Shown one piece after another: positions 6,501 to 57,386 of a DNA stretch of 64,000 bases (positions are counted from its first letter, which is position 1; each line of letters opens with the position of its first letter). The position numbers and the translations under genes were made by a program. A model generated the notes under the pieces. It was not told the DNA's origin, did no database searches, and worked only from the letters and a program-made list of their open reading frames with translations. Source of the stretch: Tubiluchus corallicola (lineage: Eukaryota > Priapulida > Priapulimorpha > Priapulimorphida > Tubiluchidae). The stretch covers positions 372,001 to 436,000 of the forward strand of contig JAQGDQ010000012.1 of the NCBI GenBank assembly GCA_030141605.1, given 5' to 3'.

Positions 6501-7013
6501 CGGGGACGATCTCAGACCCCCAGCTTCAATCCCACAGCCTCTTCCCCGCGACACGAAATGTTAAAGTTCTGTGTTCGCTTCTCCGACTTTCTGGTAGCAT
6601 GTAAAGACCGGGTTGTCGTCTATTAAAATATTAAAAATAACTATGTAGAGCAGTTAATAGAAGTTGGCTTACCCGCATTAGGTGATGAACACCGCGCTCT
6701 GTGTTATCCTTATAATCCACTTTTCCGTGCTGTCAAAATCTACTTAGTAGTGCAAAATAACTTGTCTTTTGCTGTAAGTCCAGGTCAAATTGAAATATTG
6801 CTGATACTTGTGGGGCAGCAAGTGGCTGTTTTTTATCTCAAAGTGCATGTAATTACAGGTATAGCTGATATAATCACAGGTGTGAAGTTTCTTCATCGTT
6901 GCTTTTGAATTAGAAATAAGAATCGTATGTTCGCTTATAGCGGCTTATGGTTTTACAGTTCTTTTGGCAGCAGCTATGTAGTAGCCCAATGAAATATGTA
7001 CGCCAGTCTTTTT

Positions 7014-7016
<3 letters not shown>
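3561..7016. other. Intergenic DNA, no gene recognised
   Basis: Several overlapping open frames occur near 4.4-5.3 kb, the longest 144 codons on the - strand at 4685-5119. They overlap open frames on the other strand, have no recognisable motif and no splice context. The segment around 4860-5110 is richer in GC than its surroundings and may be an old element, but I cannot name it. A further GC-richer patch lies at about 6450-6610. Confidence 0.4.

Positions 7017-7067
<51 letters not shown>
7017..7067. repeat. TC dinucleotide microsatellite, left arm
   Basis: An essentially uninterrupted TC tract of about 50 bp directly precedes the LINE fragment. A second TC tract in the same orientation follows the 3' end of the LINE at 8657-8744. 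The arrangement suggests the LINE inserted into one microsatellite and split it. Confidence 0.95.
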
Positions 7068-7068
<1 letters not shown>

Positions 7069-7070
<2 letters not shown>

Positions 7071-17500: not shown

Positions 17501-20500
17501 AAACTGCGTAAACGGGTGCATTGAAAACAATATAAACCCATTTTATATATATATAGGCACTTGCTACGTAATTATGTTTTACCTTCTAGCTAATGGTACT
17601 ATTCTGATTTATCCGGGGCTGATAATCAAATCACTATCTTTGCAGGTGTTGTGAATTTGTTATTAAATAATATCTGGGATCTTTGTTTTTGTGTTCTCAG
17701 CTTTTTTGTACAAAATTGGTCTTTCAGTCATTCTCATCATATTTTGATGTCTGCTGACGTAAAAAACCAACAACCGGAATGAGTCCTATTATTAAGTTCA
17801 TTGATGCCACTGGTGTATTTTTAATTGGTACTGCTAAATCACTTATTAGAAATGTCTTCCATAAGCTACAGACTAGCCTCAGCTTGCATATTAAACATAA
17901 TTTTCGTTTGCTTTTAACAATTGATTTTAATCTGCTTAGGAAGTCGGAAGGCAACCGGTGCAACTCAGTATTATCATTCAACTCCACACGTGCCTACTTG
18001 TTTGTCCCGCTCAAGGCGGTAGGTGGCCTCAACAAACGTGTATATTTGCGCCCCTTGCCTCTCTTACTTCATGCGGTGCTGCCTAAGCCAAGTGTCACCG
18101 AAGCTACTGCTGTCCAGCTCTCCTTCGTGGGCCAATAATGGCTACCATCTAGCATACAATTTCTAGTTTTTGAAAGTTTGAACATCTTTTTCCCTGCACC
18201 CCTTCAAGTATTGCCCTTGAATTTATTAGTGGTAATCACAAACACAACATTAAGCCATTGCGGAAGTATAGTTTACAAACAAATCACGTTTACATACCTG
18301 TTTTGTGTTTACCTGCTACGGTGATGTGGTCCAGTTGTCGGTGTACTGTATTCTTATTATATACTCTTCAATCTTGATGTCAAGTTATTATATCTGGAAC
18401 ACGGATACACCTCGACGCTGAAGGTTTTTTTCGTTAATGCTATGTGCAACCAAACTGAGACTTTGGTGGCTATTTTGTGCAGAAGCAGCTGTAGCTAGAC
18501 TTATTTGCCACATTACGTAATAAATTATGTACTAATTGGCAAACTTAGCACAGGAATAGGTCTCAGCAAGACATAAAAACCCATTGTTTTTTGGTTCAAA
18601 ATTTCAAAGGTCAAGGGCACATAGTCAAAAATATAAATAAACTTAAATATCCTGACTGTTATATTGCTTAAATCTATTCTGGCAATGTTTCCCAGCATAA
18701 AATTTTTGCCCATAGTGACTTCGTGAGAGAGAAGGTATGGGTCTACACCTCTGTTGTGTATGCTCTACTTGTTATGTTATTACAATGAAATAAGTTTTGT
18801 AGTAAAGCTTTTTGATGTCGCCGTTACTACTATCACTGCTGTGTTGATGTCAATGCTGCTGCACCTCAGGCTGTAATGACTAAATGTTCAAAGGCTTTTA
18901 TGATCAGTGGAAATAATAGATGACATGATTATATTTTTCCAGGTGTGGGAATGGTGCTGAGTACTGTCAGTGGCGTAGCATGGAGGGTGACATCTCCCAC
19001 CCCTTCTTCGTGTCCATGGGCATGCTGCTGTTGTCGTCGACCGCCTCCTCCAGATGAAACTTTTGCACCCCGTCAGCCCAGAAGTTATGACAGAGGACCA
19101 CATCCATTTTCAGGTACAATAATTGCATTGGGGATGTCTGAATGAAGCTAATAATTCATTTCATATAGTTTGGCAGTCTGCAAGACAAAATCTTGTATTT
19201 AATGGCGGAACTACTTAATGTGGGTGGCTGTTGTGGAACCTGAATGAAACTCTTTATCGGTGCTAATTCTCTAAGATGAGATATTGAACCAGCAGAGGTG
19301 TCTCTGCCATTTTTTGGATGTGAACACTTCTTTCAAACAAACAAAATTTGTATGCTTATCGAAAATTCCACAGTTAGTAATGAACGTGGTGGTCAGCCCA
19401 TCCAGTCACTGACTAGTCTTGTTAACCATGTCGTTACCAATTACTTTTATTCCACTCATCTGGTATCTTTTAATCATGAGTTAAGGAAAATGAAAAACCA
19501 GTTATTGTTTGTTATATATTCTAATGTAACTCACTGGCAACAACCATTCAAAAAATGAACCTGGTAATGACATTACCTTGTAATTTTGTTCATTTTTGCA
19601 TAGGTATTTAGTGCCAAACTATGATGCATAGGTATTTAGTGCCAAACTATGACTGATTTATTTACACAAAGTTATATTGCCTAGCATTGCGGTCTTTGAA
19701 ATACTTTCTTGTTTTTTTTATTCACGCCAGCTGGTAAAACATACCGTTTCACTGTCCCAGTGTTCACCAAAAAGCGTGCCAAAAATATATTATTCATCTT
19801 AGTGACAAGATAAAGTAATTTAAACTTTTGTTTGGTTTGTGTAGTCAAGTGTGCACTCCTAAATCGCTAGTATTTTTCATACTTTATGCAATGTTATCTA
19901 ACTAATTCTAATCAGTGACTGACTGTTAAAGTGGCTGCGCCTGTTTGTCGGTGTCACTGCTAATAGAAGTCTGTGTGTAGTAAATAATAGAAGTCTGTGT
20001 GCAGTAAAACAGCATGTAGCTGATACAAAATAACAATGTGAATTTTTTTAAGTTTTAGTCTGGAAAAATTCTGCTTTCTTGTCTTTAAAAATTAATTGAT
20101 ATGTGCTATGTTCACACTAGAGCTCTCGTAAAGTATGAATGTCACTACAAATATGGCATTATTATAGACTAATGTTACAGTTCTGAAAATTGGGTCTAAT
20201 GCATTTACTTGTGCCCCATAAGTCCTGATACTGCTTGCATGCTTTACACACGGGAGGTTTTGAGTCTGTGATAAAATTGCACTGGAAGAATGGTACCTTG
20301 TTGTGTTCGTGTTACCTTTGTTAGCTCAGTAACTCACTCAGCTGCTGGCATGGTATTTTCATCAATCGTTTTTTGTTTACAATTGCTATTTCAGCCATGT
20401 TGTATCAAGACTTTCAATTTCGTCCACCACCTCCTTCATACCAGGCATCAATGCAGGACTACAGGTTACGTTTATTGTGGGAAAGATCGTCGCCAGCAGT

Positions 20501-21501
20501 CGCACATCCATCACCACCCCCTACCTACAGGTTAGTCTTCATGTTATTCACTATCAGTGTCACCTGATAAAACTGGGCAAGTTATTTTTGTTTTTGTAAC
20601 AGATTTTTTGCTTTAGTTGTGACTATGACTCTATTATGACATTTTATTATAACTAAGTTATTTTTGTTGTGCTGATAAGGAGTGTCATTTAAAGTATGGC
20701 AGCTTTCATGAAATGCTTGATTTTTATGAGTGACACAATTTGTTATGAGCAACAGTTATTACATTTGCCCGTATATTTGCCATTGGATGGCACAACTTGT
20801 TTTGCAACAGTGCAATGAGAAAGTGTTACCTAACATTTACCAAACCCAAAAAGTTATTGCAAAATTAATAAAATGTAGTCACATATTAAACCTTAATTTT
20901 CAGGTCTCATGCGAGCACTGTAAGGGCATCACTTGAAATACCTGCAACTCAAAACGAAAACCACGAGTCATCCCTTCCTCCAAGCTATAGATCACATGAC
21001 AGTAACAATCTATTGGCAGTGCAACCTCCTGTGCGAACTCGGGGTAGCATTTCCACAATTACTGGAAATATTACAGTCACATCGGAAGTCACAGCTGCAA
21101 CTGAAAGTAGGGAAAATGGGGTAAACAACACAGAAACACAAGCTAGGCAGGAACCTTCTGGTGCATCAGGTCAACAATCAGCTTTGGTGAACTCGACTCC
21201 ATGCCGCAGCACCAGTGCGCACCATTCTCAAACCATACCCGGAACCTCTATGAACTCGTCTACCATGGAACAGAGAAGGAAAAGGAAACACAAGGCAAGG
21301 CGTCGACATACAGAACTAGGCAGGAACTGTACACTGCCTGACAGTGTACGAGAAGCGATAACGCCCAGGACTACTATTAATCCACACACAAGAGCTCACC
21401 ATCGTCGCCCGCCACACATGCAAGAACATGGTGCATTGCATCCAGAAGATTTAGCCACTCAAGTGAGACACCACAGTGGCAGTTGTCTTCGTGAATCATG
21501 A
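11513..21501 (+). CDS. Two-pass membrane protein with three PPxY motifs, likely WW-domain/NEDD4-ligase adaptor
   Basis: Five coding exons join in phase: 11513-12332, 12517-12648, 18943-19113, 20395-20530 and 20904-21501, giving 618 residues. Residues 1-273 are a hydrophilic, Ser/Asn/Thr-rich, probably disordered N-terminal region with an Arg-rich patch. Transmembrane segments lie at about 277-302 and 309-330, joined by a short loop. They are followed by a cysteine cluster (C341, C345-C348) that could be palmitoylated. The tail carries PPxY motifs at 387-390 (PPSY), 416-419 (PPTY) and 445-448 (PPSY), then a Ser/Thr-rich region and a strongly basic stretch (RRKRKHKARRRH). PPxY motifs bind WW domains, notably of NEDD4-family ubiquitin ligases, so a membrane adaptor or substrate role is inferred; no orthologue name was recognised. 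The start is the first of two nearby ATGs (11513, 11522) after an acceptor at about 11441. The second intron is over 6 kb. Confidence 0.85.
12649..18942. other. Large intron of the PPxY gene
   Basis: A 6.3-kb intron bounded by GTGAGA and a TTTTTCCAG acceptor. It contains small palindromes (15370-15403 and 15809-15842) and a GC-richer patch at 17940-18140. That patch carries a 119-codon + strand open frame overlapped by a - strand one. Neither frame has a recognisable domain. I see no nested gene. Confidence 0.6.
15809..15842. repeat. Perfect 14-bp inverted repeat
   Basis: TACAGAAGTAATAA and its exact reverse complement are separated by a six-base spacer. It lies inside an intron and could be a remnant of a small hairpin element. 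No function is evident. Confidence 0.7.
19597..19652. repeat. Perfect 28-bp tandem duplication
   Basis: Two adjacent identical copies of a 28-bp unit (19597-19624 and 19625-19652) lie in an intron of the PPxY gene. A similar two-copy repeat of about 23 bp (AATAGAAGTCTGTGTG...) lies at about 19962-20007. Both look like recent slippage duplications. Confidence 0.85.
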
Positions 21502-24687: not shown

Positions 24688-27600
24688 TTAAATGGTACTT
24701 TCAGCAGCTCCAGCAAGACTGTTTCTATTACAAGGAGATGCTACAGAATTAGACGATTTCTCTCGTCGCTGTGCAGAAGATGCACGCGAAAATGAACGAT
24801 CCAGTGTGGCAGAGCTACTAGCACCTTCAAGTGACATTCGTTTCCGAGTGCCTCTGGTAAAACTGCGATCCAATGTAGCCGCTCCGCTTTCTATAATCCG
24901 CCTCCTATCATCTAAGAAAGGAAATTGAAAAGAATGTTATGAAATCACAGTAAATGCAGAAAACGTTTTGATTCATTAACACACTTTTATGGCATGAAAA
25001 TTTACAGTCAGTCGGGGTCGAATTTATAAGGGGATAATTGCTCTGGGTCACCTGCCATGGACCTCAAAAGTTCTAACGGTTTATACATATTATAATAATT
25101 CAGATTAAATTAAAGGGACGTGCCTACCGTCAACACCTTTTTATCAATGGTAAAAATAAATCAAATAATGTTATATTTAAGTTTTTGATTGTATCATTGT
25201 TTTGCATTATACTTTTAGATACATCATACTACTTTAAAAACTTATTTACATAGACATAACAATTTATGAATACTATATGAATTATTGCTTATTGTTATTT
25301 CTATTCTGACTGTCACAAAATTTTAATATTTATTTCTTCATTGGGACCACCATGTCTTTCTTTATATGGATCAGATGTCTAGGAATGGGAGCCGATGACA
25401 AGATGCATTTATTTTGTTTAATTTCTATGTGGAGGAACCCCAAAGCTAAAGTTCCCCATGGTCTAAATACGTTATATTTTAATCAAACAAAAACACGGGT
25501 AAATAAACTACTAGAAGAAAATCCTTTCTTCACAGCAGGGAGCAGCACTGGAGTGGTTGGCAAAATAGAAACAACCGGTAATACGACGTTATAAATTTTA
25601 TCTTTGTTAAATTAACAATAGAAATAGAGTAGAAGAGCCACATATTACAATAACATAAATGATATTCACAATATGTTGAATACTATGAATTACAAAGCAT
25701 GTGAAAATTTAGAAATTTTATAATGAAAATTACGAAACAAGTTTAACTACTTTAAAAAATACCAAAGTTTAATTTTTTGACAGCAGGCAGCAGCACAGAG
25801 CACTGGCTGGATATTTTTTGGAACCTGGGAACCCAGTGTTTCATTTAATTTTTGTATGCCAAATTGGAATTGCAGGATGGCAGTAACGAAGATTACAATT
25901 CCACATCTGGGGGACGGTACGGCGTGAACAGTAACAGTATACAAAAACAATTGGCATCAACATATGGAACGTGCAATGTTTTAGAATGTTCACACACCCT
26001 AATGATCAGCAACGAAGCGTGATAGAACGTTAAACACGACATAAACTGTAGGTGACATGTTAATAATATGGTGTACCTACCCAAAACTCCAGCAGAATGA
26101 CTTTTACTAGGAGGTGTGTAACGAAAGGCTGGCATGTGGTGCACCCAGTGTTTAGATGAACCTGCTACACTGCTGGAAGCCATACTTCGTCTCTGAAAAA
26201 ATACACGTCACACTCTTGCTCAGATTCTTAAAAAATAAAAATATGCAAACAGAAACTTTCAAAATGTATTTTAATAACTTTTATCCAGTTTAGTTTTTTT
26301 TGTATTGCATTTTCTAAGCTTCAATGGAGCAAGATTATGTAGAAAGAAGACATACTTGTTAAAGAACACTTTATGAATGTCTTTTAAATAATTGTCAAGT
26401 GATTTTACAGCTAAAAAATTTACCTGACCTTACAGGACATTAGAAAATATTTGAATGCTATTATTATTTGTTAAAAAATTCCTGAAAATAGACAAGCACC
26501 CAGTAAAGTTACAAAAAACTAAAATAAAATAAACATTTGAACAATCTAATCATCTACCTGAATAAGTGCTAGTGGTATCATAATTTTAATTCGAGCTCAT
26601 ATTAAAATTGTGTTGTAAATTATTAACGTTATGTTTGGTGGACCTATATTGCGAATGCTATAAACGCGGAAACATATTACATTCCTGTAAAATGTCATCT
26701 TCTCTGGTTTATCCTGGTTTGATGTATTACAAAAGCAACCAGTTAATTTAAACAGCAACTTATAATTGATCAGTTGTCTAAAAAACATTTAGTACCTGAT
26801 AAAATAAGATGTAAGCAGATTTGTTCATAGCATCTTCTTCTGAAACAGACTTGACCCTCTGATCATCATATAGGTACCACTTACTATTAGCAGGATTTCG
26901 ACATATTGCTAAAACACAAAAAAACAGTGCAAAACTATTACTGCAAAATGTGTAATACTAATAGTTGTTTTTTTGTGTTTGAATGAATGAACAATATTAT
27001 GCAAAAAGACGTGAACATGTAAGCAAATTCCAAACACCTTAAAACTGAATAAAACCGCTTGTCGATCAAATTTGTTTCATACCTAGTAAAAGCTCTGCTC
27101 CCAAGATTTGGCAAATTCCTTTTAGGTTCCCGTAGAACCTTCCTCACACATAGGAAATAATTTTGTGACAAAAACTTCCAGTCCTTACCTGTATAATGTC
27201 CACCAGTTAACGTTCCAATATGGTTGCATATGCCGTACAGGTCGTAAGTAAAATCATCAGGACTGGGTGCATGTTTTTGGTGGGATGTTCGTTTCCATGG
27301 TGACCAGGTGTTATAATGATTGTTGTCTGTGCTAGTCCGTGGAGCCACATGTTTTGACATATCTAGGCCATATATGGGATATTCGACTAGAGTGTTCAAC
27401 TTGACTCCCTGAGATGTTAGCTGCAGAACAAAATAAACTACATGTGTAATAATTTGTTGTTATGGTGCTGCTACATTCTAAAAAAATACGGCAACAGCAC
27501 ACCTCATCTGTTGTTACTGCTCACAATGCAACATCCCTCAAATCTAGAGTCGTATTTGATAAATCTTTTTGCAGTATATCTATACACGTGTAATAATTAG

Positions 27601-30600
27601 TGAGAGCCAAATGTTTGCTAGTGGGAAAATACAGAATTTTCAAATTCATCAAAAAGATAAGAACTAATCTAGAAAAAAGAAAAATTAACAGTTACATTTA
27701 TAATCTATTGAATTTAACTGTGGTAGCCACAATTCTGTATAATCAGTACATGTAGTAATAGCAACATCAAAGGAAATTATAGCACAGGTTATTTGAACTA
27801 TTTTGAATATCTGCCATGTTGAACTATAGAAAACTATTAGCAGCAGAAGATATTTTGAGAGTGACTTAAAATAGTTTTATTAACCTAAAATATGTCATCG
27901 ATTTATATTAAAATATGTCATGGCAACAGTGCCATTAATTGCGGCTCTAACTGTCATTAGCTGATCTGATTAATGTAATGGACAGTTTACATTTTTGGTT
28001 ACCTTATAGGAAACAAATTGGAACCTAATGAGCTATTTAAATTTAGATTAGTACACCACAGAGATAATGTTTCAAAGCTAACTGTGTGCATGACATGCTT
28101 GGCAAACAACAAGTTGTGGCATATTTTCTCTTATCTTACAGACAAGACACATTTACTTATAATTGCATAAGCCGAGCTACACAATAAAAAACAAATGATC
28201 TCAGTAAACATTATAGACTACAAATTTGGCCATGCTACACACAATGCGGTCTTCCCAGTAATATGCCGCATTCAGCGCCACTGCACCATACGAATGCACA
28301 TAGACTGCTCTGCCGCATTACACCATGCAGGCTACTTTACGGCCTCGGACCATAAAGGCCATAAGATCATACTGCTGCATTTAAATTTCTAACTGCTTCA
28401 TTACACAGTTTAGCTCTATTGCACTATAAAAATTGTTCAGCTGTATCACCCAGTTCCAGACTTCTAGCCATGATGAATAGTAATAGATACTCAGCTATGG
28501 TGTGCCAAGTAGTAGAACATCTACCCTCACAGGTAACATCATACTTTTCAAACACAACAGAGAATCTTTTTACTGTACCAACTTCCAGTGCATCTTATAA
28601 CAAAATAATTCCGTAAATGTATAAGACTCTACTTTTTGTCAGTCAATGAGTAATTCCTACACAATACCTGTTGGAATCGTTTGAGATGTATAACTAGGAT
28701 GTCTGGTAATGTCCACAGGTGCAGACGCTTTGTCGTTCCTGGTCCGCCTTTTTTACAGTTTGGACACCGCCATGCATTTTTGTCATCCAACTGCAAAAAT
28801 ACGTGTGTATACAGTCATTAGTAACAAGATAATACAGAAACAGCCGAAACAAACTCTTTTTTTCATGTGCTTAGTAAAATCAACGCTTTTGCAAATTTTT
28901 TTTATCAAATCTTTCATAAATTTGCAGCAGAGATACAAGTCTGGATTATATTACTGCTGAATACATACTTAGGTATTTTGTATTCATCAAACAGAAATTA
29001 AAATGGTGCATAATCTATTTGTCATTGTTTGTTATTTTTTTAATCTACAATTTCATTTGGTAAATAGGAATGTCAACCATAAAACTGTTTACGCTGCCTA
29101 CAGGAACCAAATCGTACTGGCCTGGAAAAGGTCCGATCTCAAGGTGCATTAAATGTGTAAGTGAAAATGAGTGAAAATCAAAATTTTAATGAAAAATTTC
29201 AGGTGCTCAGATAAGAACTAGCAGGAATTTTTATCACATTTCTGCAGAGGCAATTTCAAACAATATATCAAGTGGATTTTCATGTCTTGGAACCACTGTA
29301 CTCATTAGAATGATAACAAGCAGGCAAAAAGTAAGGAAAGAACCAAGTAAGCAAGCATATAAATAAACAAGCAAGCCTGTACATAGAAACATTATGTCCA
29401 TACTAATTGGCTATGCACACCTGCACTATGAAAAGGCAAGATATTTTAACCAGATGGTAAAACAGCTTGGAACAGTACAGCAGATGAAACCGCCCAAAAT
29501 TTTGGAATGTCACCCATCTATTTACTGACCAGGCACTGCTTAACTAAGTAAGCACGCACAAAACAACTAGCCAAGCAGAGATTGAATTGGTAAATTGAGC
29601 CCATCGTTTTCAGTTTGCTAACTAGATGAGAAGAAATGGACTTTTGTAAGTTTAAACATTAAACAGTGAAAGTACCAGAATTAAGTTTGAAAGAAATGCT
29701 CTTTGCAATGATCAGCATGAACAGCATGCCATCCAAAGACTCTGGTTCAGTTCCAGCACTAGAAAAAGACTTTCTTGCCAATTTAATTGTTGTAGTCCAT
29801 TAAGTTGTTTTTGTAATAAGGCATTTATGAATTCATGAAATGGACCTAAATACACCATACACAACATGGTACATTTCATTCTAATATAACTCCAATGTAT
29901 TTTTCCTGTATGTTTCCTTTGCATATTTTTCTTTCTTATTAAGTGCATCTACTAAACTGTCACAAACATTATGCAGACTTTAAAAAAAGGCAGGATGTCC
30001 GTCACGGACACTAAAGTCATGACAATCCAGAACTGGTAAACCATATGATAAAAATAATTGACACGTGAATTACCAGCCCTTATCGAATGGCCTACTGAAA
30101 GCGAGAAGCTAGTAAATAGTTACAAAATAACAAGTCTAACTACGTAAGCTTAATTAAATTAGTGTAAACAAAATGCAATAGCGCATTTAGGCATTAAATA
30201 AGTTAATCTAAAACATTCTAAGATAACAGGAATTACAATAGCGATCTTCAAGATTGCCATAACAATTGCACGAATTCTTTGGTCTATCAAATTAGCCCAA
30301 TTGCACAACGTCACATTTGGCCATCCACAGTTTACGTTAGTGCAATCTCATAGTGAATGCAAATTTAACAGAACCGCTCTTAACCTCATTCGAAAAGGTT
30401 ATGTTGTTGGCACATATATTTTACCCAATAAAGTAAGTCAGTGTACCCTACACATCTGTTTGCAATAAACTACATGTATTTAATTAAAAGCGCGGTTCAT
30501 TTGAAGATCTCAAGGACACGAAGAGACATAAATTAAATGTCAACCAAGCTCGACACCCTAACCCTCACTCTGAACAGTTGAAAATTAATAACACACAAAA

Positions 30601-32517
30601 ATACCCCCTCCCTCCCGAACAGAGTGCCATCTACTTATATTGTCATTAATCATTAAATTAATTAGAATTGAAAACTCATTTATTTCAAGTGCCTGCTGAC
30701 ATTTTCCGGGTACGAGCATAACTTGCCTATAGGCCTACGACGAACGGTCAAGCAAGGGATATCAAATAATTAATAAACAAGTTAGCCGCTTGGATATGAA
30801 AGCATTAAATTCAATATCAAACAACCTATGTAACTAAGGTGCAACACACGCCAGGGTTTCCAATAATCGCTACTCTTGTCGACAGTTTGTCTATCCGTTT
30901 TTGTTTAACAATGTGACAAATACCGCACTTTCACAACATGAATGTTTGACGAAAAATCCAATTCTTTTCGCTCCAAATAAGGCACGATTTTCGTCACTGT
31001 CTCCATTCTACCTACGTTTATCTAATTGATTGCTTGCTTTGATAGGTTGACCACACAGGTATATAATAAAATCGAGTGTGGGTCAGGGCACTGGTTCACG
31101 AGTGTGGCGATGAATTGACAATCATTTCACGATCAAAATTCATTGCCGACAACGGATTAGTAATAAACGAGTGATTCAGTCAATTTCAGTGTTAGTGCAA
31201 GCCGAAACTGGCCAGTATTCAATAAATTGATTCTGAAAGATTCTTCGTAAGTATGTGATGTAATTTAAAAATTAAACACTATTTTGTGACAAATTAGATA
31301 TTAAAACTTATTACTTGTTATAAGTGAAAATGCTGCGACATAATTCAAGGTATAAATAGACAGTGTCAATATTACATTATACTTGGGCTTACAAATCTCA
31401 AAATTTAAAATGTCATTATGGATTAAACGCTTTATTTGAATGGCGAAAAACTAGACGAAAATCACTAATCGATCAGTGCTTTTACTTCTCCTTACGCATA
31501 CATAAGATGCTTAAGCAGTGCATCTGTATGGTCGCTTAACTGGCTTTGTTGATTTAAATCTAGACAACACTGCATATAACATCTCAACTTTTTTGGCAAC
31601 TGGAAGAGAGACGTAACATTTTTTTTATGGTAAGAAGACTGTTTAGTACCATTGGTGAATAACAACAATGATAACATAGTTTGTAAATTAATGCACTCTC
31701 CGAGGCTTAATTTGAATAGTAGTAATGGAAAAGCAACAAGGAGTTGAAATTGCATTATCAAATATTGTCAAACAATAATTCTAGTGATGACTTGCTCTAT
31801 TATCCTGAGAGCCAAGACCTCTAGAGATTGCGTGCTCATCAACTAGTGAGTTTAATTTACTAGCTTGACGCTATTAGCTTATAGCATCGTTATCCAGTGT
31901 AACTGAAAAGGCTGGCTTAAAAACGTGAACATAGATATGCTTGCCATTTTATTTTAGGCTACTATGAACGACCTCCATTATCTGCGAATTTCGTAACCAC
32001 TCAACGTGAAACATTAGTAATAACAATAATATTATTTCAGTTTTACTATTGTCACTAGCTCACGACCCTACACGTAGCGTTACGCAAAATCCTTAACTTA
32101 ATAAAATTATATATCAATATTTTTCTAATGGTATCACTCAAATAAAAAACTTAAAGACTACAGTAGCAACGAGTATTATAACTACAAAGAAATTGTTTTA
32201 CGGAGTGAGCCAGAAAATCTACGGATAGTTACTATTAAAAATACGCTTGTAAAATGTTCTTTCTCTAGGGCAAGCATGTGGATTTTTGTGGCTTTAATAG
32301 CAAATGCAGTCACAGTAGTAATCACTACAAATCAAGCTGACAACGTATGGCGGTCACGTCTAAACCAGGGTAAATACGAAGTTGTATCTTGAATTAGTTT
32401 CTTCCTTTATTTATTTTAACAAACCGCTCTTTTTACTACTTTTTGTTATCTTTATATGGTTTCTTAACCGCTAAAAGTATTTATATATTTCTTAACCACT
32501 AGAAGTATATTTAACAA

Positions 32518-32564
<47 letters not shown>

Positions 32565-35500
32565 TAATAATAATAATAAATGAACAAAATAGAAGTAATT
32601 ATATATAACCCTTAAAACGTAACTACATCCTAATCGGAGAGGTGGCCTGAATACAATGGCAAGGTTAGAAAATTTTGTCTTCATTTACCTTCAAAATGGC
32701 TAAAACATTGATCACAGTGATCAAAGCTCAAGCTAATCCATAAGGGACATAGTAAACAGGCAGACCTGGTAGTTTGCGGTTTGAGACTATCTTGTCGTTT
32801 AAGCTCATTTGCAAAAACAATATCTTTATTAAAATACATGGTGTTTCACATTTTTCGTACAAAGGTTACACAAAAGCTCCAGAAGCTGTTGTGGGTTACT
32901 TCACAACGCAAAGATATGGACCAATTGGTGCTGGTCAGCTCAGTGGACGCGGTAAAAAGGTATCCAAGGTGCAGTATACAAGAGATGGAAAGGCTAGGGG
33001 AAGTCTATACTCAATTGACCAAGCAGAAGCAAAAGAAAAGGCTAAGAAACAACGAGGATATGATTATAACTATGCGTAAGTTCACTGAATCATGGTCACA
33101 TAGCAAACTATCATGCTCAACTATTTATTTCATGATCACACCATTATTTCATATCTGATTATGATTAACCTAAAGGTTATTTCTTTAGATGTCATTCATA
33201 TTTTAAACCCGATGATCTAGAACATACACAATAAAAACCATGATGTATGGACATTCTTGAAATCTAATAATGGGTAAAGAGGTTCACATTTCATTTAAAC
33301 AAAAGAGAAACAACATTAACCTCAAAAATGGACGGCTTTAAAAATGCTTTTCTGGCAACTGAGTTAAAATTCCTTTTGTAATACTCGAAAAGTCACACAT
33401 GAAAAGCTTGATTTTTGTTTGCTGGAAATTTTACTGTTGAGCAAATATGATCCATGGGAACTCTGTATATGCATATCAGTAAATTAGAAGATGTCAAAAT
33501 AACTTAAAAGAGAGACACCATGGTACTAGCATCACACAAATTCTGAACTTTAAGACGTATTTAATTCTGATGTACAGTTGGTTCACATATCTATAATGAT
33601 TTCTGATAACACTCATACATGCCTGGACCCAATACGTTCCCAAGCAAAATGTTCCCAAGTACCATTGCACTCAACTGTTAACAGCCATGCAACTAGCTGC
33701 GATAGTTGTCAAAACTGGGTAAATGTGAAATGCAGCGGCATTCAAGGCTCATTGTATCAGCATGGAATGGACATTTATTTGAAAGTTTCATTCGCTTGTG
33801 ATTACTGTATTTCTACACTACCTATCTTTCTTTTATTTACCGTGAATCTGTTACTTCAGTTCAATGATGTGTAGACAGTTCTAGTGCATTCTTATTTTAT
33901 TTTATTTATTGCTGAGGATGTAGCAAATAAATGTAATTAAACCAAGTCCTTAATATAGACACACCTATTAGCGGTGGCTATTTATTGAGCAGCAATGAAC
34001 TCGAACATTGCCCAGTTTTACAAAGTTGATACAATCAACGCGAACAGCTATAAATTATGAGAGCAACCACAGTTTGGTAGCCAGAATAAGAACTATTTAA
34101 GGCAAAGAATGAATACGGCACTGCGGAACTATAGGGTAAAGCAGTCTTTGATCTGGCATTTTAAGTATATAAAAAATGAATGGCATGCAAACAAATGAGC
34201 AATATGATATGGCTTTTGCTATATGTGTAGATGAAGCTGCATGCAAGTATTTCATTAAGTAACAGCATCTAGCTTCAGGATAAACAAAATGATTCTGTGT
34301 AGCTGTAACCCAAGTCCTTTAAAAATACCTGACACATATTCATCTTCTTATTTTATTTTGCATTTTATTATATAAGCTAGTCTGCATTCAGACATAACAT
34401 TTTGCGACAAACTAAAAATATAGAACCAGTCAGTTCAATAAATTTTGTCAGAAAAGAACCCAAACGGTGATTCTTTTGTCAAAAAAAATTAAATCAGACG
34501 TTAAAGCACCAAGCAAATTTAGTCAGATGTATGGCAATAAATAGAATCAAGACAAGCTTTTATTGTGTGCTATTTTAATGATTTTCAAGTAATACAAAAT
34601 AAGTGAAACACCATTTTTAATTTCTGTGCAACCCTAAGATAGTTAAGTTTTTGTTTTTACCGAATAGCATGCAATCATGCATAATAGTAAACTACAAATA
34701 CACTTTTTAAATTTTTTTCTTTATAGAGAAGGTCACGAGTATGAGCAACCTAGAGAATTATACAAATATGAAGAGGAAGAACCTATATGGGGTACAGCTG
34801 TACGAATTGTACCAAGAGGTAGCCGATACAGACGAGGACGCTCACGGCGAGGATATCGTGCAGGAAGAAATAATGTTGGCAGATCCAGATCTAGAAGCCA
34901 TTACAAACCACATGACACAGTGCAAAGAAATGCAGATGAGCACATTGTTCCACAAAGTTTGACAGGCTATGCAAGGCCAGTTCTTGCTTCACCTGCAACA
35001 AGACAGTACAGCAGGGACAACATCGATGCTCCAGTCACTAATTCCAGACAAAATGACATAATTCCACCTTATAACAGCCAACATGACATATCAAGGAATG
35101 TCAGAGGATACGCAATTCCTTTGAGCAGTTCAAGTCAGCTTGCTACAAATGATGTTGATACTGCTGGAAGATCAACATATAGTAGTCGAACAAACAGTTA
35201 TCAACTTACACCTACCAATCATCTCCTAGGTCTGAGTGGTATATCGTCAGTTAAACAATATGAAACTGATAGTGGACAAAATTATGGCAAACCAAAGTTC
35301 AAGGTTACTGAGCAATCTTCAGAAACAAATTCAATTCTTACAGATCCAAGACATACATTTGAACTAGTCATGGTGCGTGGTACAATGAAAAAAGACACTT
35401 ACATGCAAAATTTTTAATAATTTTTGACAAGAAAGAAACTGCTTGTACTTTACACTATAGTTAAAAATAATAATAAAATTGCAATTGTTAAGATACAATG

Positions 35501-38500
35501 ACGCAAAATTTACAGAATGTGTTACTAGCGATGCAGCTAGAGCCAGACGTAATATTCAGGTTCAAGAAGCATTTTAAAATTTTTGACAAATGGAAAATGA
35601 CTCAAAAGAAAAGATCCCACAAAAAGAAATCTGTCAAAACCCTGAATAATCTTACCTTCTCTGTCTGGGTGTATAAATCAAAACATTCAGAAAGTGACGC
35701 AGTGACTGGCTTCTGATATTTCCGCTTCAATTCCCGCACAGTTACGTGTTCTTCTATCACATCTTCAACACTAGTAAAGACCCTAAAAACAAATTACTTG
35801 ATATAATCAATTTTAAGCTAATTTAACATGCACATATACTGTATAGAAACTTCATTTAAAAATAAATTACATAATTTATTAACACTTACTATAATGTCAA
35901 AGCTTTTTTATCATGCAGTCAGGAAAAAACGAAAACCGGTTAAATAAGTTAAAATCTAACATAAATGTATAAAGTCCAAGAGAGAAGACAAGTTCTTCTA
36001 ATAACTTAAAAATCAAATCCTATAGTTTACAAGTAAGAATGCACATAAGTTTATGGTATCTTTAAGAGAACCAAACCTACCTACAGACAATAATTTTTAA
36101 ATGTATGAAATTAATTTTTGAATATGTTAGCTTGAAAGAATAGTTAAGAAGCACTTGACTAAGAAGTACTTGACTATCTGTCTGAGCAATAACAACAATG
36201 AACAACTGATTGCCTAACACTAAAATCCTAGAAAAGTAGTAACAGGTGAAATGTGTAACACTCAATCTTTAATGATTGTTAGTCACTTCACCAGTGGTAC
36301 GGATGACTAATGGTACAGCTAACCAGCGGTACAGTTCACTAGTGATACATTTCGTCAGTGTCACATATCAAAAGTACACACTAATGTTTCTCTGCTATAT
36401 TATTACCTTATTACTCTAACAAAATGTTTCAGTTTGCCAATAGCACAGATTGTCATGACACACTTTGTCAGTGGTATAATATTCCACCAATAAAATTTCT
36501 CTACTATGTTATTACTTTATTACTTCTAATAAATTGTTTTTGTTCACTAGTAGACCACTTCGCCAGTAAACCGACATCACAGATGAACACTGCAGTTCAC
36601 GATCATGCTTATCACGGTACTGCGCGTATTTGTCAGCCACACGAATGTGACAAAATGGCGCCACTGCCAGTCTTAGCGGATTCGCTGAGACGCATGTAAC
36701 TTTGAAAGTTTAAAAAAATTAGCTATCCATGGTAATTATTATTTAATCTAAGCTTTGATTTAAAAAATAGTTTTCAATATTTTAGAGCATACTTTACTTT
36801 GAACTAATGTCTGAGCAATCGTCCGGTTTTCCTTTAACCAATGTTTTTCAATAACTTCTTCATTTCAGATATCAAATAATATTTAAAATGATCGATCGCT
36901 GGTAAAATGTGAAACCACGGCATGTGTTATAACAATGACAAAAGTACAAGCATAACAGGTACACCGGCAAACTGTACTACTGGAAAAACTGAAACATTTG
37001 TTAAATAGAGAAGTAAATGATATCGAATACAGCAGGAAATTTTCACTGGCAGAATGAAACAATTTGTTAAAGCATAAGGTAATAACATACAGAAAAAATT
37101 TTATTTGCTAACTGTATCGCTAGCAATGTGTAGACTGGCAAACTGAAATGTTTTGTTAAAAATAAGGTAATAACATATAGCTGAAAAATACGTTGCTGGT
37201 GAAAAGTACTGCTGGCAAAGTGTATTACTGAAAAAGTGTGTCACTGGCAAACTGTACCACTGGTGAGATGTCAACTTAAGAAATGGGAGATAGCATCTTT
37301 AATCATTTGTTGTATAGTAATGTGACATTTTCAATTGTATCATGCCAAATTATATCATAGAAAAACTCAAATGATCAAAATATAAAATAGGATAACTTAT
37401 AATACATAATAGACTTACGTCTGTTTAGTTACTGGATCCCACTCTAAATAAAGCTTAACATGAGTTGGATTGCCAAGATTATCACATGACTCTAAGGCTC
37501 TGAAACAAATTTTTAGAAAATATAATGTTTAAAAGCTAATTTCCAACGCGTTATTAAGCATTAAAGTTGCGAAGAATAGATAATAAATAAATAACAGGAT
37601 GACAAACAGTAAGATTTTACTATAGCAAAATCTTAATAAATACTGAAGCCAGGCACCAGTAATGCACTACAACTGAAACGAGCATTTTCTGTGATTTCAA
37701 AATTAGCGTCGGTTCAAAGCAATAAAAAAGCAATAATTAAGCAAAAGCATAATAATGAGCTGCTTCAATTATGTCCTGATTCGGTTAAAGTGCAATTTGT
37801 CTCATTTCATTTATTTTCATTATTTTATTTCTCATTCATTTCAGTTCTTATTAAATCCCTTAATCTATTGAACAAATGAATAAAAATAAACTATACCACA
37901 ATAATCAATATGCAGGCTAATAAGAAATTTACAGTTTTTTGATAAATAAAGTTCAAAAATGATTTCAATTATAATTCGGTTCAGAAGTAACAAAAATAAG
38001 AAAGAAAAGCTGACTCAACACTATAGCACAGAATGTTAGCAATAAAATACTATTCAAATTAAGGAAATGAATGCAGAAAAATCCTGACATCAGCAATTTA
38101 GAATTTTTGTACTATTTGTGCCACTTAAGTACCTGCCGGAGGGGGTGACAGACTGGATCTCAAAAAAAAAACAGAAACACTTAGTGAACTGGCAGAGGTT
38201 GTTTCTTTTTAAAACAGGTTAAAAACATTCTGTCTGTTCTGTGTAAATGTGGGCTTTTTGACTTTTGCAATAAAGATCTTTAGCAGCAAAATTTCTAGCT
38301 GTCACTACCTGTACTAAGTACTATCTGGCTTACAATGTTTAGAAAGTTACAAAGTTATCTGTTACAAAGATAGTATAACAAAAGTACAGAACTATATAAA
38401 ACATCACAAGCACAGAATCATTATAGCAATACCACATGCCTCCGATATCACTTTTGATGCTATTAGAAATAATGACTTGGTTCCAATTGTGTACAATGAG

Positions 38501-41500
38501 TCTGACCTTACTGTTACATGTACAGTCTCAAACAGCATTTTCAAAGCACACACATGAAGCTGAAATTGTTAAACTGGTCAGAACCACAACTCTCATAACA
38601 TCTTGTATAATTAAAGTGCCTACGTCTTCTCTTACTAAAGGCTCACAGTCTACTACAAATATTGAAAACAAAAACAAAGCACTTGACATTATCACCATGT
38701 TTTATACCTGTCTATGGTAGGCACAAACAATGGAAGATCAACATCGTGTGAAAGATAACTCTTTCCTGGTATGCCATCAGCCACTCTTATTTTGAACAAG
38801 ACACCCATTTGGTCGGTCGTTATGCCATTTCGCAAGCCTGGAAGAAGCTTAGTAATCATGGCACTTTGTAGCCTATGGTAGGAGCATTGCCTATCAATGG
38901 CAAACACTACTGGACTGCCGAACCTGGAAGAAAAAGAAGCACTGCATTTTTGAGTAGCTGAGAAAAGGCGAAACAAAACAAGACAAGACAAGGCATAGTT
39001 GCAAAAAACAATAAGATGACTTTACGAATAGTATTAGCTTGTATGTCTATATGCCGACTATATACAATTTATACCCTTAAGATGTGTAAATCCAAAGTGT
39101 TAAATTTTAAGCTGGGTAACTGACAACATCATTAAATACATTCTACACATTAGTGCGTAAGTCACATTAGTGCGTAAGTCTTTGTGAGGGTAGTAAACGC
39201 AACAATAACTCTTAGATGAAAACTTTGATGGTACGTAACTGCTTTAGACAATAATGACCATGACTGTGATGCAATGGATCATGTAAAATTTTAAACGTGT
39301 ACAAAATGAAAGTCAAACAATCTTAAGAATTATGTAATAAGATTATAAATACCAAGTCATCATCATAATTAAAAACTGTCATTACTGATTACTGGCTAGT
39401 GGCTAACACGTACTAAATGCCTGACTAAATAACTATATAACTGTGTATTAAGCAATACACTTTTGCAACAGTCTTAACCATTATGACACGAGTACGATTT
39501 TTTCCCAAAAAACCCAGTTTTCCCAGTTGCACATTAGTTGTGTAACAATAAAAATGAAACTAGAACATGTGAAGACTTACTTTTTACCCTTACTACCAGA
39601 ACCAGAGCGGTTTACGCAGATAAGAAGCATCTTGCGGCTGCTAATAGGTGGAGTTTGTATACAAAAAATGTTATCCGTTTCATGTATGACACTGACAGAT
39701 TGGTAGTCATTGAATGTCCGGTGAAAACCATCATAGTATAATTCCGATAAAATAATCTATAAACAATTAATTTAAATAAAATCAACTACCCTTCTTACAG
39801 CAAATTGAATGCTGACTCGTTTTGCAAGATATATAAACAACAACAGAATGTTAAATTAGTCACTATTCAGTCTCAGCAAACTGTAGCACATCTTGTAAGC
39901 TACTATTCAAATTCTGAATGCCATCAAAAGGCCAACAACAAGAGCAATACTTAGGTATCCTCATATAAACCTTGCATTTCTTATCTTAATGTATTCAACC
40001 ACCCAACTGGTAGTTGGCAAATACTAACCAGATTTGGTGATGTGTAACTGAGAAATTGGTCCAAAACTAAAACCACTAGTGTCTGCATGCTTTCCTTAAA
40101 TAAGGAGGACTGCCCATCTACAATGCAAATTGAGCTGTTTCTCTTTAGCAAAATTCACGAGCACCACTGTCACAGTTGCTTTAAACTTGTATGTAACTAA
40201 AGTGAGACTCGGTAGGTTCTGATCTTAACTTGCGTAGATTTTGATCATTTGCGTGAGGAGAATGCCCAAATGACCACAACCTAATAAAAGTTAAGAGTTA
40301 AGATCAGAAGCTACTGAGTCTCCCTACAATTAGAAAGTTGATGGCCGGTTTCAAATGCCATACTGCATCTGGCTATTACTCTCACTGTACATTAGTAGTT
40401 TGCTCATCAGTAAGTGATGGCTTACTGTATACACATGTATGTGATATTAACTACAACACCTCTGCTGCTTGGAAGATCATCTTTGGGATAAAAAATGTTG
40501 TCCTGCTATAATCACTGCACATTAGTAGTTTGCTCATCAATAAGTGCTGGCTTGCCAAGAATGTATAAAAAATTATACCTGATTAACAGGAATAGCAGTT
40601 TGCAAAGATAACTCTTCTCTCAGCTCTTTGATAGTTGCACTAACATTGATGGTGATACCTGCAGAAAGCAAATAAAACAGCCATCCTTTATCTTAGCTGA
40701 ATTTTGTTGGGAACTGGACATAGACAACTAATATAGTCTCTGTTCTATATTTACAATACACGTACATTTTATGACTTACCTATTCGCACTTGTTTAGGAT
40801 GTGCATCCAGGTAAACAATGGTCACATACACAGGCCTCTGCAGTCTCTGTGGTATTGGAAGCGAGACACATAGAAATGGATCAAAATTATTACTCTTTCT
40901 CAGACAATTAGAACAGCAGAGGGACGAGCGATACTGTGCAAGAAAGAGATCCTGCACAAAACTGCTGTTACAACGTGTATGATTAGCCATTGCTTCCGCT
41001 GCCACAATTTCGTCTGTTCGCCCTAGACTACTCTGAAACATAACATACTCCACAAATTACACAGAGTTAAAAATTATTTTGCAAATACTATAGCAACATA
41101 TACCTTGCAGAAATAAAAAATTAAAAGTATTGTTGGCTGGTGATAGATATTAGACTCAATTCTAAAAAAAATACTGGACAACGGATAGTGAAAACATTAA
41201 ATACAGCTCAGTTATTACTAGAGTGTAGTTTACCCTTGACTATATCTCTACTAGTGCATATAATATTAAATTGCTCTTATAATGCATAATAATAAGCAAT
41301 ACATGCATAACAAAGTCCTAGATAAGTGATGTGAAGTGATTATTGTGGGGGCAGGGGGATCAATTAAGCTTTAACGCCCTTTGAGATAATGAAGCATGCT
41401 CATATCACTCAGTTACTAGTTAGGACCTGCTGGCTTCAGTCTAGGTTTGTAAGTTCCTCACAATAAAATAAAAGTTCCCTTAACAGTAACGATGTAGATC

Positions 41501-44500
41501 CAGCTACCACTAGCAATACTGAAGTTTCCTATTCTAAAATTACCTGACCCAAAATGCAATCATGCTGATATATGTATTAAAAAAGATTCCACGGTTTAAT
41601 TCCACACTGCAGTGCTCAAGAAGTAAGTCACCAATATAGTGCACCTTTACAAACATGTTTTCATATCTGTTATAAAAACCACAAGCATCACTAATACACT
41701 GACCTAGTTTATAGCATATATGCTGCAACTAGTGTTAATATTATAAAATGGAAGATTACAATCTACACAAATAAATATTGAAAGTTGACTTCCTATTGCA
41801 ACTTACACCTGTTCTGCATAAACAATGATATGATAGTTTGCTTGCAGACTTGCCTTTACAAGATTCGTAAGAGTGCAGGAGATTCTCTCGCTTTCATGTG
41901 CCATATTAAAGTACCCTAAACATTTTATTTTTGTTGAACATTTTCTTACTGGTTTTACAAAGAGCCTATTGTTATACTGCTGCTACATGTTAAGAAGGTA
42001 AACAGACATACTGTACCACTTAAAATATCAAACCTACGAATTTCAACACTGAAAGCAGTGCCAGTTATACTATCTATTTATTACGTTATATAATACACTG
42101 ATCAAAAATTAATCTCTGTAATACTACAAATGGCTTCCCAAACTGTAAATTTGCTTATAACACCAATGATGTCACATTGATTCTCAGTTTATTTTATGAT
42201 GATTAAGTCAAATGTCATTTGAATTAAATGTACTCATTATGTAATAAAGAGAAGCTTCCATCTATGCTAAAAAGATTTACCTGATTAATTTGGTCAATTT
42301 GGTCAAAGCACTTGGTCAATTTGTAATAAAGTTAAACTGAATGCACAGATAATTTCGATTGCACCTAAGTATGGCTTACTCTGCACTATTTCTTCATGAA
42401 ATGTGAAAGCATGTTACACAATCACGTTAACGTGTAGCCGTCAATGGCTGTCTGTCTACTGTTTACAGGTAATCACCGACTTATGACTCACAATTAGTTC
42501 TAGCTGATTGATCAAAAGACGATTTTGGATGCAAGTCAGACCAGTACGTTCAGGTGAAATATTGTGTCTATAAGGACACAAAGTACGGCGGCACCTACGG
42601 GTGAATTTATCGAAACAGATAGCGATTTAAAATTAATTGGCTTAGAAAAGAGAAGGAAATATAAGTTATAATTAGTTTTGCATGATTAACTAATTAACTT
42701 GTGGTCAGATCATAAAATTGAGCAGTTGTAAGTTGTATAGGTTGTAAGTCGACAACTACCTTTTCTATAATACAGAATTTAGCGCATGCAATGTTCACTG
42801 TGATTTAAAAAAAATAAAGATTGCAAAAAAGTAAAAAACCTACCCATCTGATTTTTTTAATGTTATCCTAACCAAATATTTTTTGTGTGACTTTAGTACG
42901 ATTTGTCCCAGCAATCAGAAAACTGCGAGCTTCCATTTAAAATATGTATGCCAAAATCATTGCCATTATTAAAACAACCACATGCATGACGCAAGCATAT
43001 TACATTTACCTTATTTGACCGGTACTTCTTTTTTGAAGCTGTGTTTAGATCTTCGTGAATCTTATCCAACAACCAAGTTAGGAATTCCTGAGCATCATGC
43101 TGTTTAGAACCCCGATATTGGGCACCATACTTTCCAATACAAGTTCGAAATTGGGTGGTTAATTCAGGAGCATATTGTCCCGCCCATAAAGACTTCATAA
43201 CCATTGCTAACATATCGGTTATTTCACCACGAGTACCATACTGTCGTGCATTTAATTTGTTGCTTCTCACTACGTCCTTCTTATAAAGATCACAGCAAAA
43301 ATATTCAGCTAAGGCATCTGTATTAGTGAGACACTGGACAATTGAATTAATATAACAAGTATTGCCATGGTTTCTCATACCTGCTAATGTAGTGTTCAAC
43401 CTCTCTGGAGGTAACTTAACTACTAAACGAGTAGGCACATTACACAATTTGTCTGAATGCTGTTCACTTGACACTCTGCTTGCCACTGCTGCTGCATGAG
43501 CCTTAGCAGCATCTCGCTCCATTGCCCATTTTTTGCCCACAGGTGTGATTTTAGCAACTTGCCGAAAGACTCTCATAGCAAAATGACCAAGTGGAAGAAA
43601 AGGATTGAACTTTTTCTTTTTGTCCTCACCCTTGGCATTAGATTGGCCCCTGCTTGTTGGTCGCATGCTCTTGTGACTGAGAGAACGTGGCAGTGTTGAT
43701 GTCGATGAGCCTGGAGTTTGAGTCTGTTCAGTGTAGCTCTGCGACGACAAACGATGAGAAGCAGGAGAACGTGAACGTCTGCGGGAGTCTAAAAAACAAT
43801 TTTAGTTATTCAAAATACCAAATTAAAGAAAATAAAGAGAAGTTGCTGCAGTATTGCAGATGCTTAATAAAAAACTCACATGTAGCTGCATTTAAATCAA
43901 CAAACAATCTCTTTAATAATCAGGCATCAACAGTAAATTTGAATGTGTGGAATTTACAGCAGACAATCTTAAATGAAGTAACATTAAAATTTTAAATTTG
44001 AATTTTGGTAGCTGTTGCAAATGGCATTTAAATACTGTACAATCAAGTGTGATGGACCTACATTTTTTCTTTCTATTAAGCAAAAACTTAATAACTGAGA
44101 CGTTCTTCACTGTTAGGATTTTTTCACTATTTGGTACTAATGAGTAATATGTTTGCACAATAACATTTAGTATGGCAGATATGTTTCTGTTTAGTTTTAG
44201 TGATTTTTTCATTACTATGGTTTACATACAATTACAATATTGCAATTGAGGTAAACTTAAGCTTGTGCTTTAATGACCAGCAGTTACCTCAGGTAAGGAT
44301 CAAATACTATAGCAGTACCCAGTAATGACTGTTTACCTGTAAATACTACTGACATCTACACTTGTTTGGTGATTGCTTTTGAGTAATCACTATTTTCCTC
44401 ATTTCTTGGTAGTTTTAACTACAAAATCTAAAAACAATGGTTTCTATGTTCTTATCATTTTAGTTACTCACGTAAGTTAAATTAAACAATTGAGCTAATC

Positions 44501-45470
44501 TACCTCAAGTACTAGTAGGGGGGCTGTAATGTTACCAAGACTCAGCATGATGTACAAAAATTGCTACTTGAACTAAGAGCCAATGCATCTGCAGAACCAG
44601 ATTTAATTCAGCCAAAGATACTGGTTAAGGCTGCTGATTCACTGGTAAAGCCATTGACAATAATTTTTAGAAAGTTTTTAGCTATTGTTTAGCTAAGTTG
44701 TCTCGCATTAGTCCGATACATAAAAACGAGCCTAAGAATAAACCTGCGAACTATAAGCCAGTTACAGTTACCAGTAATGTTGGCAAACTGCTGGAGAGTA
44801 GAGGCACATCGTCAATATAATACTCGTGTACTTACAATCTAATATTTTTTTAAGTAATGTCAGTATTTGTTTAGCATTGTTGTTGTTATTTAAAAATCTT
44901 ACATATTCACAATCACATTATTTTTTATTAAGTTCATAAAAAACTTTAATGGTATTTAACCTGTTGCAAAAAATATTGTGCATTCTACTGAAAGGACTTG
45001 GCAGTAAACAATGATGCAACTATACATATACATACATACATATATTTATGTGCATGTAATGTATATGCTATACTGCTAGTAGGCAAATGTGTCTGGTGCA
45101 AGCTGTTAGCAACAGTTCGTTTAAGATACTTGCGTACTTGTCTGTAGGTAAGTAGGGAGGCTAACCTCAAAACGGCAACTCTTCCTTTAATCCCATGGCA
45201 ATATTTTTTAATTATGCCTAAAAGAAGCAGTCAGCAATTATCACTAATGTACAGTAATTTTTATTCCAAGTGTTCTCTGCACTCATGGTACACATACTAT
45301 GGTAACACGGGACCAATTAGCAGAATTAGTGGTAACACAATTCTAAAGTTAAACATATAATGATCACATTTAAACATATAAGTATTAGTACCTCTAGTTG
45401 TAGAGCGGTTACGTACTAACTCCGACTCCGACTTTGACCTTTGTGAAAATTCTGGTTGATTTTTATCCAT
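24688..45470 (-). CDS. USP31/USP43-type ubiquitin carboxyl-terminal hydrolase
   Basis: Thirteen coding exons on the - strand join in phase: 45470-45392, 43788-43010, 41032-40780, 40658-40579, 39756-39581, 38923-38708, 37499-37419, 35782-35656, 28790-28668, 27420-27189, 26908-26796, 26192-26081 and 24911-24688. They encode 864 residues. The product is a cysteine protease that removes ubiquitin. The Cys box (GMRNHGNTCYINS) places the nucleophile at C171, the QHDAQEF box follows, zinc-ribbon CxxC pairs lie at 326/329 and 606/609, and the His box GGHYT gives H713 with the partner Asp at about 730. The LAQYRSSL, SNNFDPFLCVSLPIP, ELYYDGF and THVKLYLEW segments match the USP31/USP43 subfamily. Residues 1-100 are Arg/Ser-rich with a lysine patch. 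The C-terminal tail is short (about 110 residues) against several hundred in the vertebrate proteins. The ATG at 45470 is the first in-frame ATG of exon 1. Poly(A) signal candidate: 24279-24284. Confidence 0.95.
31060..31070 (+). promoter_or_regulatory. TATA-like box of the intron-nested gene
   Basis: The sequence TATATAATAAA stands about 30 bp upstream of a plausible start of transcription near 31090-31095. A leader of about 150 bp follows, ending at a strong donor (CTTC|GTAAGTATG, exon end 31246). The position fits a leader exon spliced to the coding exon at 32269. Confidence 0.5.
32276..35417 (+). CDS. Predicted secreted Arg/Tyr/Ser-rich disordered protein, nested in a USP intron
   Basis: Three coding exons join in phase: 32276-32369 (exon begins 32269), 32865-33075 and 34727-35417, giving 331 residues. 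Residues 1-21 form a signal peptide (MWIFVALIANAVTVV, then ITTNQA before a likely cleavage). The mature chain has Gly/Tyr-rich stretches (GYFTTQRYGPIG), a Lys-rich segment, an acidic run (E117-E120), then a very basic block at 132-159 made of RGR, RRG and SRSR units. A Ser/Asn/Gln/Tyr-rich tail follows with repeated GYARP and GYAIP. There are no cysteines after the signal peptide and no second transmembrane segment. GRGKK at 59-63 and several paired basic sites would allow proteolytic processing, so a peptide precursor is possible; a matrix or polyanion-binding protein is equally possible. No family was recognised. It has its own TATA-like box and poly(A) signal. Confidence 0.72.
32518..32580. 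repeat. AAT trinucleotide microsatellite
   Basis: About 20 near-perfect AAT units, interrupted once or twice by an extra A, lie in the second intron of the nested gene (32370-32864). Confidence 0.95.
33640..33820 (+). pseudogene. PHD-finger-like remnant, probably from a LINE ORF1
   Basis: The + strand frame reads SCDSCQNWVNVKCSGI and then, about 20 residues later, FACDYC. This is the CxxC...W...C spacing of the PHD-like finger found in many non-LTR retrotransposon ORF1 proteins. There is no start or splice context, the expected His is not in place, and the frame lies inside an intron of the nested gene (33076-34726). A decayed transposon piece is the simplest reading. Confidence 0.5.
35472..35477 (+). 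terminator. Poly(A) signal of the nested gene
   Basis: AATAAA lies 55 bp after the TAA stop of the nested gene and about 180 bp before the next exon of the host gene on the other strand. The nested transcript would therefore end inside the host intron. Confidence 0.6.
36281..37272. mobile_element. Foldback-type element built of 16-bp inverted subrepeats
   Basis: The left half contains consecutive variants of a 16-bp unit (consensus near TTCACCAGTGGTACAG) at about 36287, 36304, 36320, 36335 and 36351, with further copies near 36430-36480 and 36543-36575. The right half contains the same unit as its reverse complement, densest at about 37195-37272 and ending CTGTACCACTGGTGAG. Longer arms also match: the segment at about 36393-36446 is the inverse of about 37134-37181 (AAGGTAATAACATAT, TTTTGTTAAA, GGCAAACTGAAA). 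A nine-base direct repeat ATCTTTAAT flanks the element (36265-36273 and 37295-37303) and could be a target-site duplication. No transposase frame is present. It sits in a USP intron (35783-37418). Confidence 0.68.
39146..39180. repeat. 17-bp tandem duplication
   Basis: CACATTAGTGCGTAAGT occurs twice in direct succession in an intron of the USP gene. Confidence 0.85.
40204..40322. mobile_element. 119-bp MITE-like hairpin
   Basis: The ends GAGACTCGGTAG and (inverted) GAGACTCAGTAG are continued inward by TTCTGATCTTAACT on both arms and by TCATTTG / CAAATGA around the centre. Nearly the whole element can fold. It lies in a USP intron (39757-40578), carries no coding frame, and resembles a miniature inverted-repeat element. 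No clear target-site duplication was found. Confidence 0.62.
40380..40555. repeat. Direct repeat pair of about 45 bp spaced about 120 bp
   Basis: ACATTAGTAGTTTGCTCATC followed by ARTAAGTGNTGGCTT occurs at about 40390 and again at about 40508 with a few substitutions. It is adjacent to the hairpin element and may be a partial tandem duplication. Confidence 0.7.
44567..44802 (+). mobile_element. Eroded LINE reverse-transcriptase fragment
   Basis: One frame reads DLIQPKILVKAADSLVKPLT, and after an in-frame stop and a shift of frame another reads SPIHKNEPKNKPANYKPVTV then GKLLES. These are the well-known N-terminal reverse-transcriptase segments of non-LTR elements (PxxY+PVxLTS...KLLE). The copy is short, broken and lies in the first intron of the USP gene on the opposite strand. 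Confidence 0.75.

Positions 45471-49499: not shown

Positions 49500-57386
<7,887 letters not shown>

Follow-up and report, generated by a model that had tools for sequence, protein, structure and literature searches.

A gene on the opposite strand of a ubiquitin-specific protease (USP) gene, and inside one of its introns, is probably a working, diverged member of a large secreted family, with a product that forms part of an extracellular material (shell, cuticle, tube, silk or adhesive). The structural role is suggested by composition and architecture, and secretion would take place through a predicted N-terminal signal peptide. The core of the family is an uncatalogued bipartite domain, domain A plus domain B, with a phase-2 intron between the two. 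Initial annotation of the window (the whole 64,000-nucleotide stretch of DNA analysed here) had called this gene an orphan. About 36 relatives were found in its own genome, a count in which haplotype copies may remain. The features are listed in Table 1.

Table 1 Nested gene, its shared domain and its host gene. Positions refer to the window.
Feature	Position	Strand	Remarks
TATA-like box	31060..31067	+	TATATAAT; possible promoter; pattern present, at chance level in the window
Proposed untranslated leader exon	31090..31246	+	predicted start; alternative leader runs to donor 31349
Exon 2	32269..32369	+	ATG 32276; likely signal peptide MWIFVALIANAVTVVITTNQA; acceptor rank 2 of 410; recovered de novo
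Exon 3	32865..33075	+	domain A from ~32876, family-shared; ends at a phase-2 donor like relatives
Exon 4	34727..35477	+	domain B, variable tail, stop 35415-35417, AATAAA 35472-35477; acceptor rank 5 of 410
Domain B	34728..34793	+	EGHEYEQPRELYKYEEEEPIWG; present in 15 of the 20 relatives fetched (E at most 6e-7)
Arg-rich block	34815..34898	+	residues 132-159; two R-X-R-R sites
Host USP gene	24688..45470	-	13 coding exons, 864 codons
Host intron 8	28791..35655	-	contains the whole nested gene; from the host gene model

The proposed multi-exon structure and its antisense nesting within a single USP intron were both borne out. Junctions 31246/32269, 32369/32865 and 33075/34727 were all GT-AG when checked in the sequence, and the spliced frame gave exactly 331 residues from ATG to TAA, with all coding junctions in phase. 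Exon 4 contained 229 codons without a stop (P ~6e-8, given 0.070 stops per codon in intron DNA). In codon score, the coding sequence reached 0.195 bits per codon, compared with -0.221 ± 0.042 for stop-free background codons, thus ~10 standard deviations above. An exon-chaining search that considered every ATG, GT and AG in the host intron and was blind to the gene model returned the coding exons 32269-32369, 32865-33075 and 34727-35417 with 84.5 bits. Forty Markov nulls reached at most 6.4 bits and 12 strand-segments without known exons at most 15.1 bits, the top one located within the boundaries of a PP1-like gene. Training of the codon and splice tables relied mainly on the host gene; as a positive control, that gene was recovered in full. 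Synonymous codon choice alone was weak support, with 318 of 5000 null draws scoring as high; most of the strength of the exon chain comes from the open frame and the amino-acid make-up.

The signals around the coding exons were less distinct. The leader donor at 31246, initially described as strong, ranked 36th among the 333 GT sites of the intron, and the donor at 31349 ranked 4th. Use of the latter with an in-frame ATG at 31330, the start codon chosen by the de novo chain, would give 340 residues beginning MLRHNSRAS-MWIF...; the annotated 5' end is therefore tentative, with two candidate leaders. The suggestion of TATA-driven, tissue-restricted expression found no backing in the motif count: the window has 25 copies of TATAWAAT where 20.8 are expected, and 23 of 100 shuffles reached 25. 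The AATAAA at 35472 is present as annotated, but it is weak evidence, because the window holds 229 of them. The exon-3 acceptor was weak (rank 65 of 410 AG sites); an alternative AG, read from the sequence, would start the exon at 32877 and keep the frame. A "textbook" signal peptide had also been proposed. The hydrophobic start is plausible, but seven of the 388 open ATGs in the window, that of the nested gene included, were followed by an equally hydrophobic start with no acidic residue at positions 2-16, so that "textbook" overstates it.

The strongest confirmation of the gene is homology. When exon-4 DNA was used to search the source genome (343.5 Mb), a second locus was 80% identical to its first 66 bases. 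This locus holds a two-exon gene with a signal-peptide-like start and a Gly-rich tail; its identity to the nested gene was 58% over a core of 89 residues, a figure that joins two rows across the intron. The first exon of this relative, used as a genome query, gave 49 rows, among them the nested gene at E 1.4e-13. As a query, exon 3 of the nested gene recovered, besides its own locus, 48 places (E 8.1e-18 to 0.0017), all of them free of internal stops. Thirteen of the exon-3 rows had one and the same score. They were taken as one locus because the two copies fetched were identical over 1,981 bases, which was assumed for the other eleven. A profile search that returns no known family therefore does not make a gene an orphan; here, the relatives showed up only in the genome itself. 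They are intron-bearing genes, and the nested gene matched no Pfam transposon family, so that, as far as was seen, it is not a transposon.

The equal-score member lies on contigs C2, C14, C457, C628, C1781, C1850, C2066, C2159, C2185, C2200, C2228, C2254 and C2271, with identical coordinates three times, and is either an assembly duplication or a recent multi-copy locus. A small cluster of four members on the same strand spans 33 kb of contig C1408 (22400-55233). No further member was found within 80 kb on either side of the relative on contig C1209.

Family anatomy was studied on 20 fetched loci (L020-L039), a sample biased to close relatives because it consists of the best 20 of the 49 rows. 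Domain A, ~63 residues encoded in one exon, was found in all 20, and in all of them it was ended by a phase-2 GT, as in the nested gene (GC followed by gtaagt). Domain B, ~22 residues resembling EGHxYEQPxxLYxYDxEEPIWG, was in the next exon at 15 loci, as it is in the nested gene, and was not found within the fetched DNA of the other five. A signal-peptide-like start in the frame of domain A was seen by eye at 14 of the 20 loci; L028 and L035 had such candidates in an upstream frame. Invariant columns among 19 aligned rows (A2) included T11, G15, P16, G24, G26, R36, G38, D48, E54, K58, Y62 and Y64. The flanks around this core were variable, being Gly-, Gln- or Ser-rich and in part made of long repeats, such as those of the QQGYQQQQ type in L039. 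At least 25% Gly over 80 residues was recorded for 11 of the 20 loci and not for the remaining nine, in a count where some loci are truncated and L038 was not scored by the pattern used. L030 (contig C1631, around 5113) has an open frame of 1288 residues, which consists of a ~50-residue tandem repeat (GGGKQPLDTVDNLGSIQQVQRTSRIPIGSL...) before the domain.

No convincing family was found in Pfam or PDB for the nested protein or the core. The earlier statement that the protein matches no family is nevertheless wrong, because its own genome holds a paralogous family. The 331-residue protein had no Pfam family at E 1 or less, the arthropod cuticle models (RR/Chitin_bind_4 and others) included. Searches with pieces of the protein and with the 340-residue form gave two Pfam candidates below the cut-off: SPMAP1-like, with E 0.02 on exon 4 and, as the only family up to E 10, 1.5 on the whole protein, and Mo-co_dimer (E 0.067). 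Both were rejected as chance, because two of six shuffled exon-4 sequences also matched (best 0.064). Across the 19 A2 rows, five families fell below E 1, each in at most three rows, and none was consistent; the best was Peptidase_S32 (0.0041, 3 of 19). In PDB, the whole nested protein had no match at E 5 and A1 (the family query) none at E 10; exon 4 hit 1wi6 at E 1.4, and A2 had a weak match to 6aem, a PKD domain, at E 0.031. Rfam gave nothing at the gathering score. Prokaryote, viral and phage collections, which contain no animal genomes and thus say little about other animals, gave no match. Neither exact family peptides nor a description of the A + B family were found among the papers listed by literature searches, in whose text sequences are rarely printed.

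By tree, the nearest relatives of the nested copy were L028, L035 and L036 (support 94/96, bootstrap not settled), and its own branch was long (0.59). That branch, the uncertain leader, the weak exon-3 acceptor and the weak synonymous codon signal would fit a paralog that is decaying or not expressed and has yet to lose its open frame. However, identity to domain A of the 20 fetched loci was 39-61%, and 331 codons over three exons have stayed open and in phase across this long divergence; we consider decay very unlikely. The closest domain B was that of L036 (84%). The same gene fetched longer (L040) has EEPIWGTAVRIVP in common with the nested copy and then a tail with 52% Gly, whereas the nested copy goes on with Ser, Arg, Thr and Asn. 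Since the core was shared, the tail has therefore been exchanged or has lost all recognisable similarity.

The tail of the nested protein is not Gly-rich (at most 13.75% over 80 residues, below the 25% mark), and Ser, Arg, Asn and Tyr are abundant in it. The mature protein has a pI of 9.9, contains no cysteine and is classed as disordered by the charge-hydropathy line. An AlphaFold model of exon 4 from one sequence gave no structure (mean pLDDT 47), which is uninformative in both directions. The Arg-rich block carries a net charge of +12 in 28 residues, equalled in 9 of 2000 shuffles. It is preceded by an acidic Tyr-rich patch (~98-120), equalled in 87 of 2000 shuffles and so no more than mildly unusual. 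The basic character given in the initial annotation was confirmed, and the tail is also cysteine-free and of low complexity.

The same annotation offered a precursor of basic peptides as a second reading, pointing to GRGKK and paired basic sites; such a precursor would be cleaved at dibasic or furin motifs. The protein has five dibasic pairs, and the R-X-R-R sites at 135 and 140 are possible furin sites as judged by their motif. Against this, none of the pairs is KR, and an internal repeat was not significant, with 25 of 200 shuffles as high. GRGKK, one of the sites invoked, is an ordinary variant of a conserved domain position, because relatives read GEGER or GSGDR there. A peptide precursor is, in our judgement, highly improbable.

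A secreted or matrix-type protein had been the other reading of the initial annotation, and we retain it: the protein is probably secreted, and a matrix role is our best guess from its sequence features. Secretion through the N-terminal signal peptide would come first. The conserved core would then act as a fixed module for assembly or anchoring, and mechanical or binding properties would be set by the flanks, the exchangeable part. In the nested protein, the acidic Tyr-rich patch and the Arg-rich block could act through charge and Arg-Tyr contacts, with charge-driven condensation, polyanion binding, Tyr sulfation or Tyr cross-linking as candidate outcomes. The nested protein might then be a partner or binder, and not the fibre itself.

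The family could also consist of soluble secreted factors (immune effectors, mucus or reproductive proteins). The domain would then serve to bind a partner, and conflict or sexual selection would drive variation in the tails. The large number of dispersed paralogs, their rapidly evolving flanks and the strongly basic block of the nested copy are consistent with such factors; however, cysteines are lacking and many relatives carry long Gly- or Gln-rich repeats. Cysteine-free proteins with long repeats of this kind are more usual among structural proteins, and we regard a soluble factor as rather unlikely.

For a structural family, we tentatively propose a more specific history, read from the sequences. 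The ~85-residue bipartite domain may be the fixed end-module of ~37 material-building genes, with a role like that of spider silk terminal domains, and the repeat flanks may have been exchanged many times. The copy in the USP intron would have exchanged a Gly-rich tail of fibre type for a disordered one rich in Ser, Arg and Tyr, which would serve as a condensing or cross-linking partner. The family forms a natural series, one conserved module with Gly-, Gln-, Ser- or Arg/Tyr-rich flanks, and bears on the open question of how repeat proteins give rise to new animal materials in evolution. Domains A and B together provide a handle to find all members and to ask which animals have them.

Several known systems resemble parts of this picture. 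Silk-like structural proteins (SLSPs), as described by McDougall et al. 2016 (PMC4944945), are likewise secreted, modular and lineage-restricted, and combine low-complexity regions with other domains. In that account, they are recognised with SilkSlider as secreted proteins in which Gly makes up at least 25% of an 80-residue stretch, and are grouped by composition, mostly with independent origins. The A + B family is instead defined by a homologous core domain; the Gly part of the SLSP definition holds for the 11 relatives counted above, but not for the nested protein. Low-complexity shell matrix proteins of molluscs such as Lottia gigantea, as portrayed in PMC3374290 and PMC4094399, are similar by description, being secreted, often cysteine-free, with Gly- or Gln-rich repeats and some basic members. 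Nematode epicuticlins with the GYR motif, which according to PMC9612446 are related in motif to arthropod cuticle proteins, share with the nested protein a signal peptide (predicted in the latter), intrinsic disorder and Tyr motifs that are proposed there to cross-link. Unlike them, the nested protein had no PF02756 (GYR) match at E 10 or less (within HMMER filters) and no significant tandem repeat.

There is nothing unusual in the nesting as such, because opposite-strand nested genes are common; PMC3786989 puts intronic genes at ~6% of all genes in Drosophila. The Drosophila gene 2mit, described in the same source, similarly lies on the opposite strand in an intron of an unrelated host, timeless2, but its product is different. 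The position in the USP intron may be an insertion accident that has no role for the host gene. Two host exons matched Pfam UCH, and the closest solved relatives were USP4 and USP15. The host may be USP31/43-like.

Elsewhere in the window, a LINE-type reverse transcriptase (RVT_1) at 6941-8497 was broken by a stop near 8089, and a minus-strand stretch at 56825-57127 may be a remnant resembling it. A plus-strand gene at 11513-21501 encodes a membrane segment and several motifs of PPxY type; its largest exon had no Pfam match. Exons of a PP1-like serine/threonine phosphatase (STPPase_N, Metallophos) occupy 50900-57428 on the minus strand.
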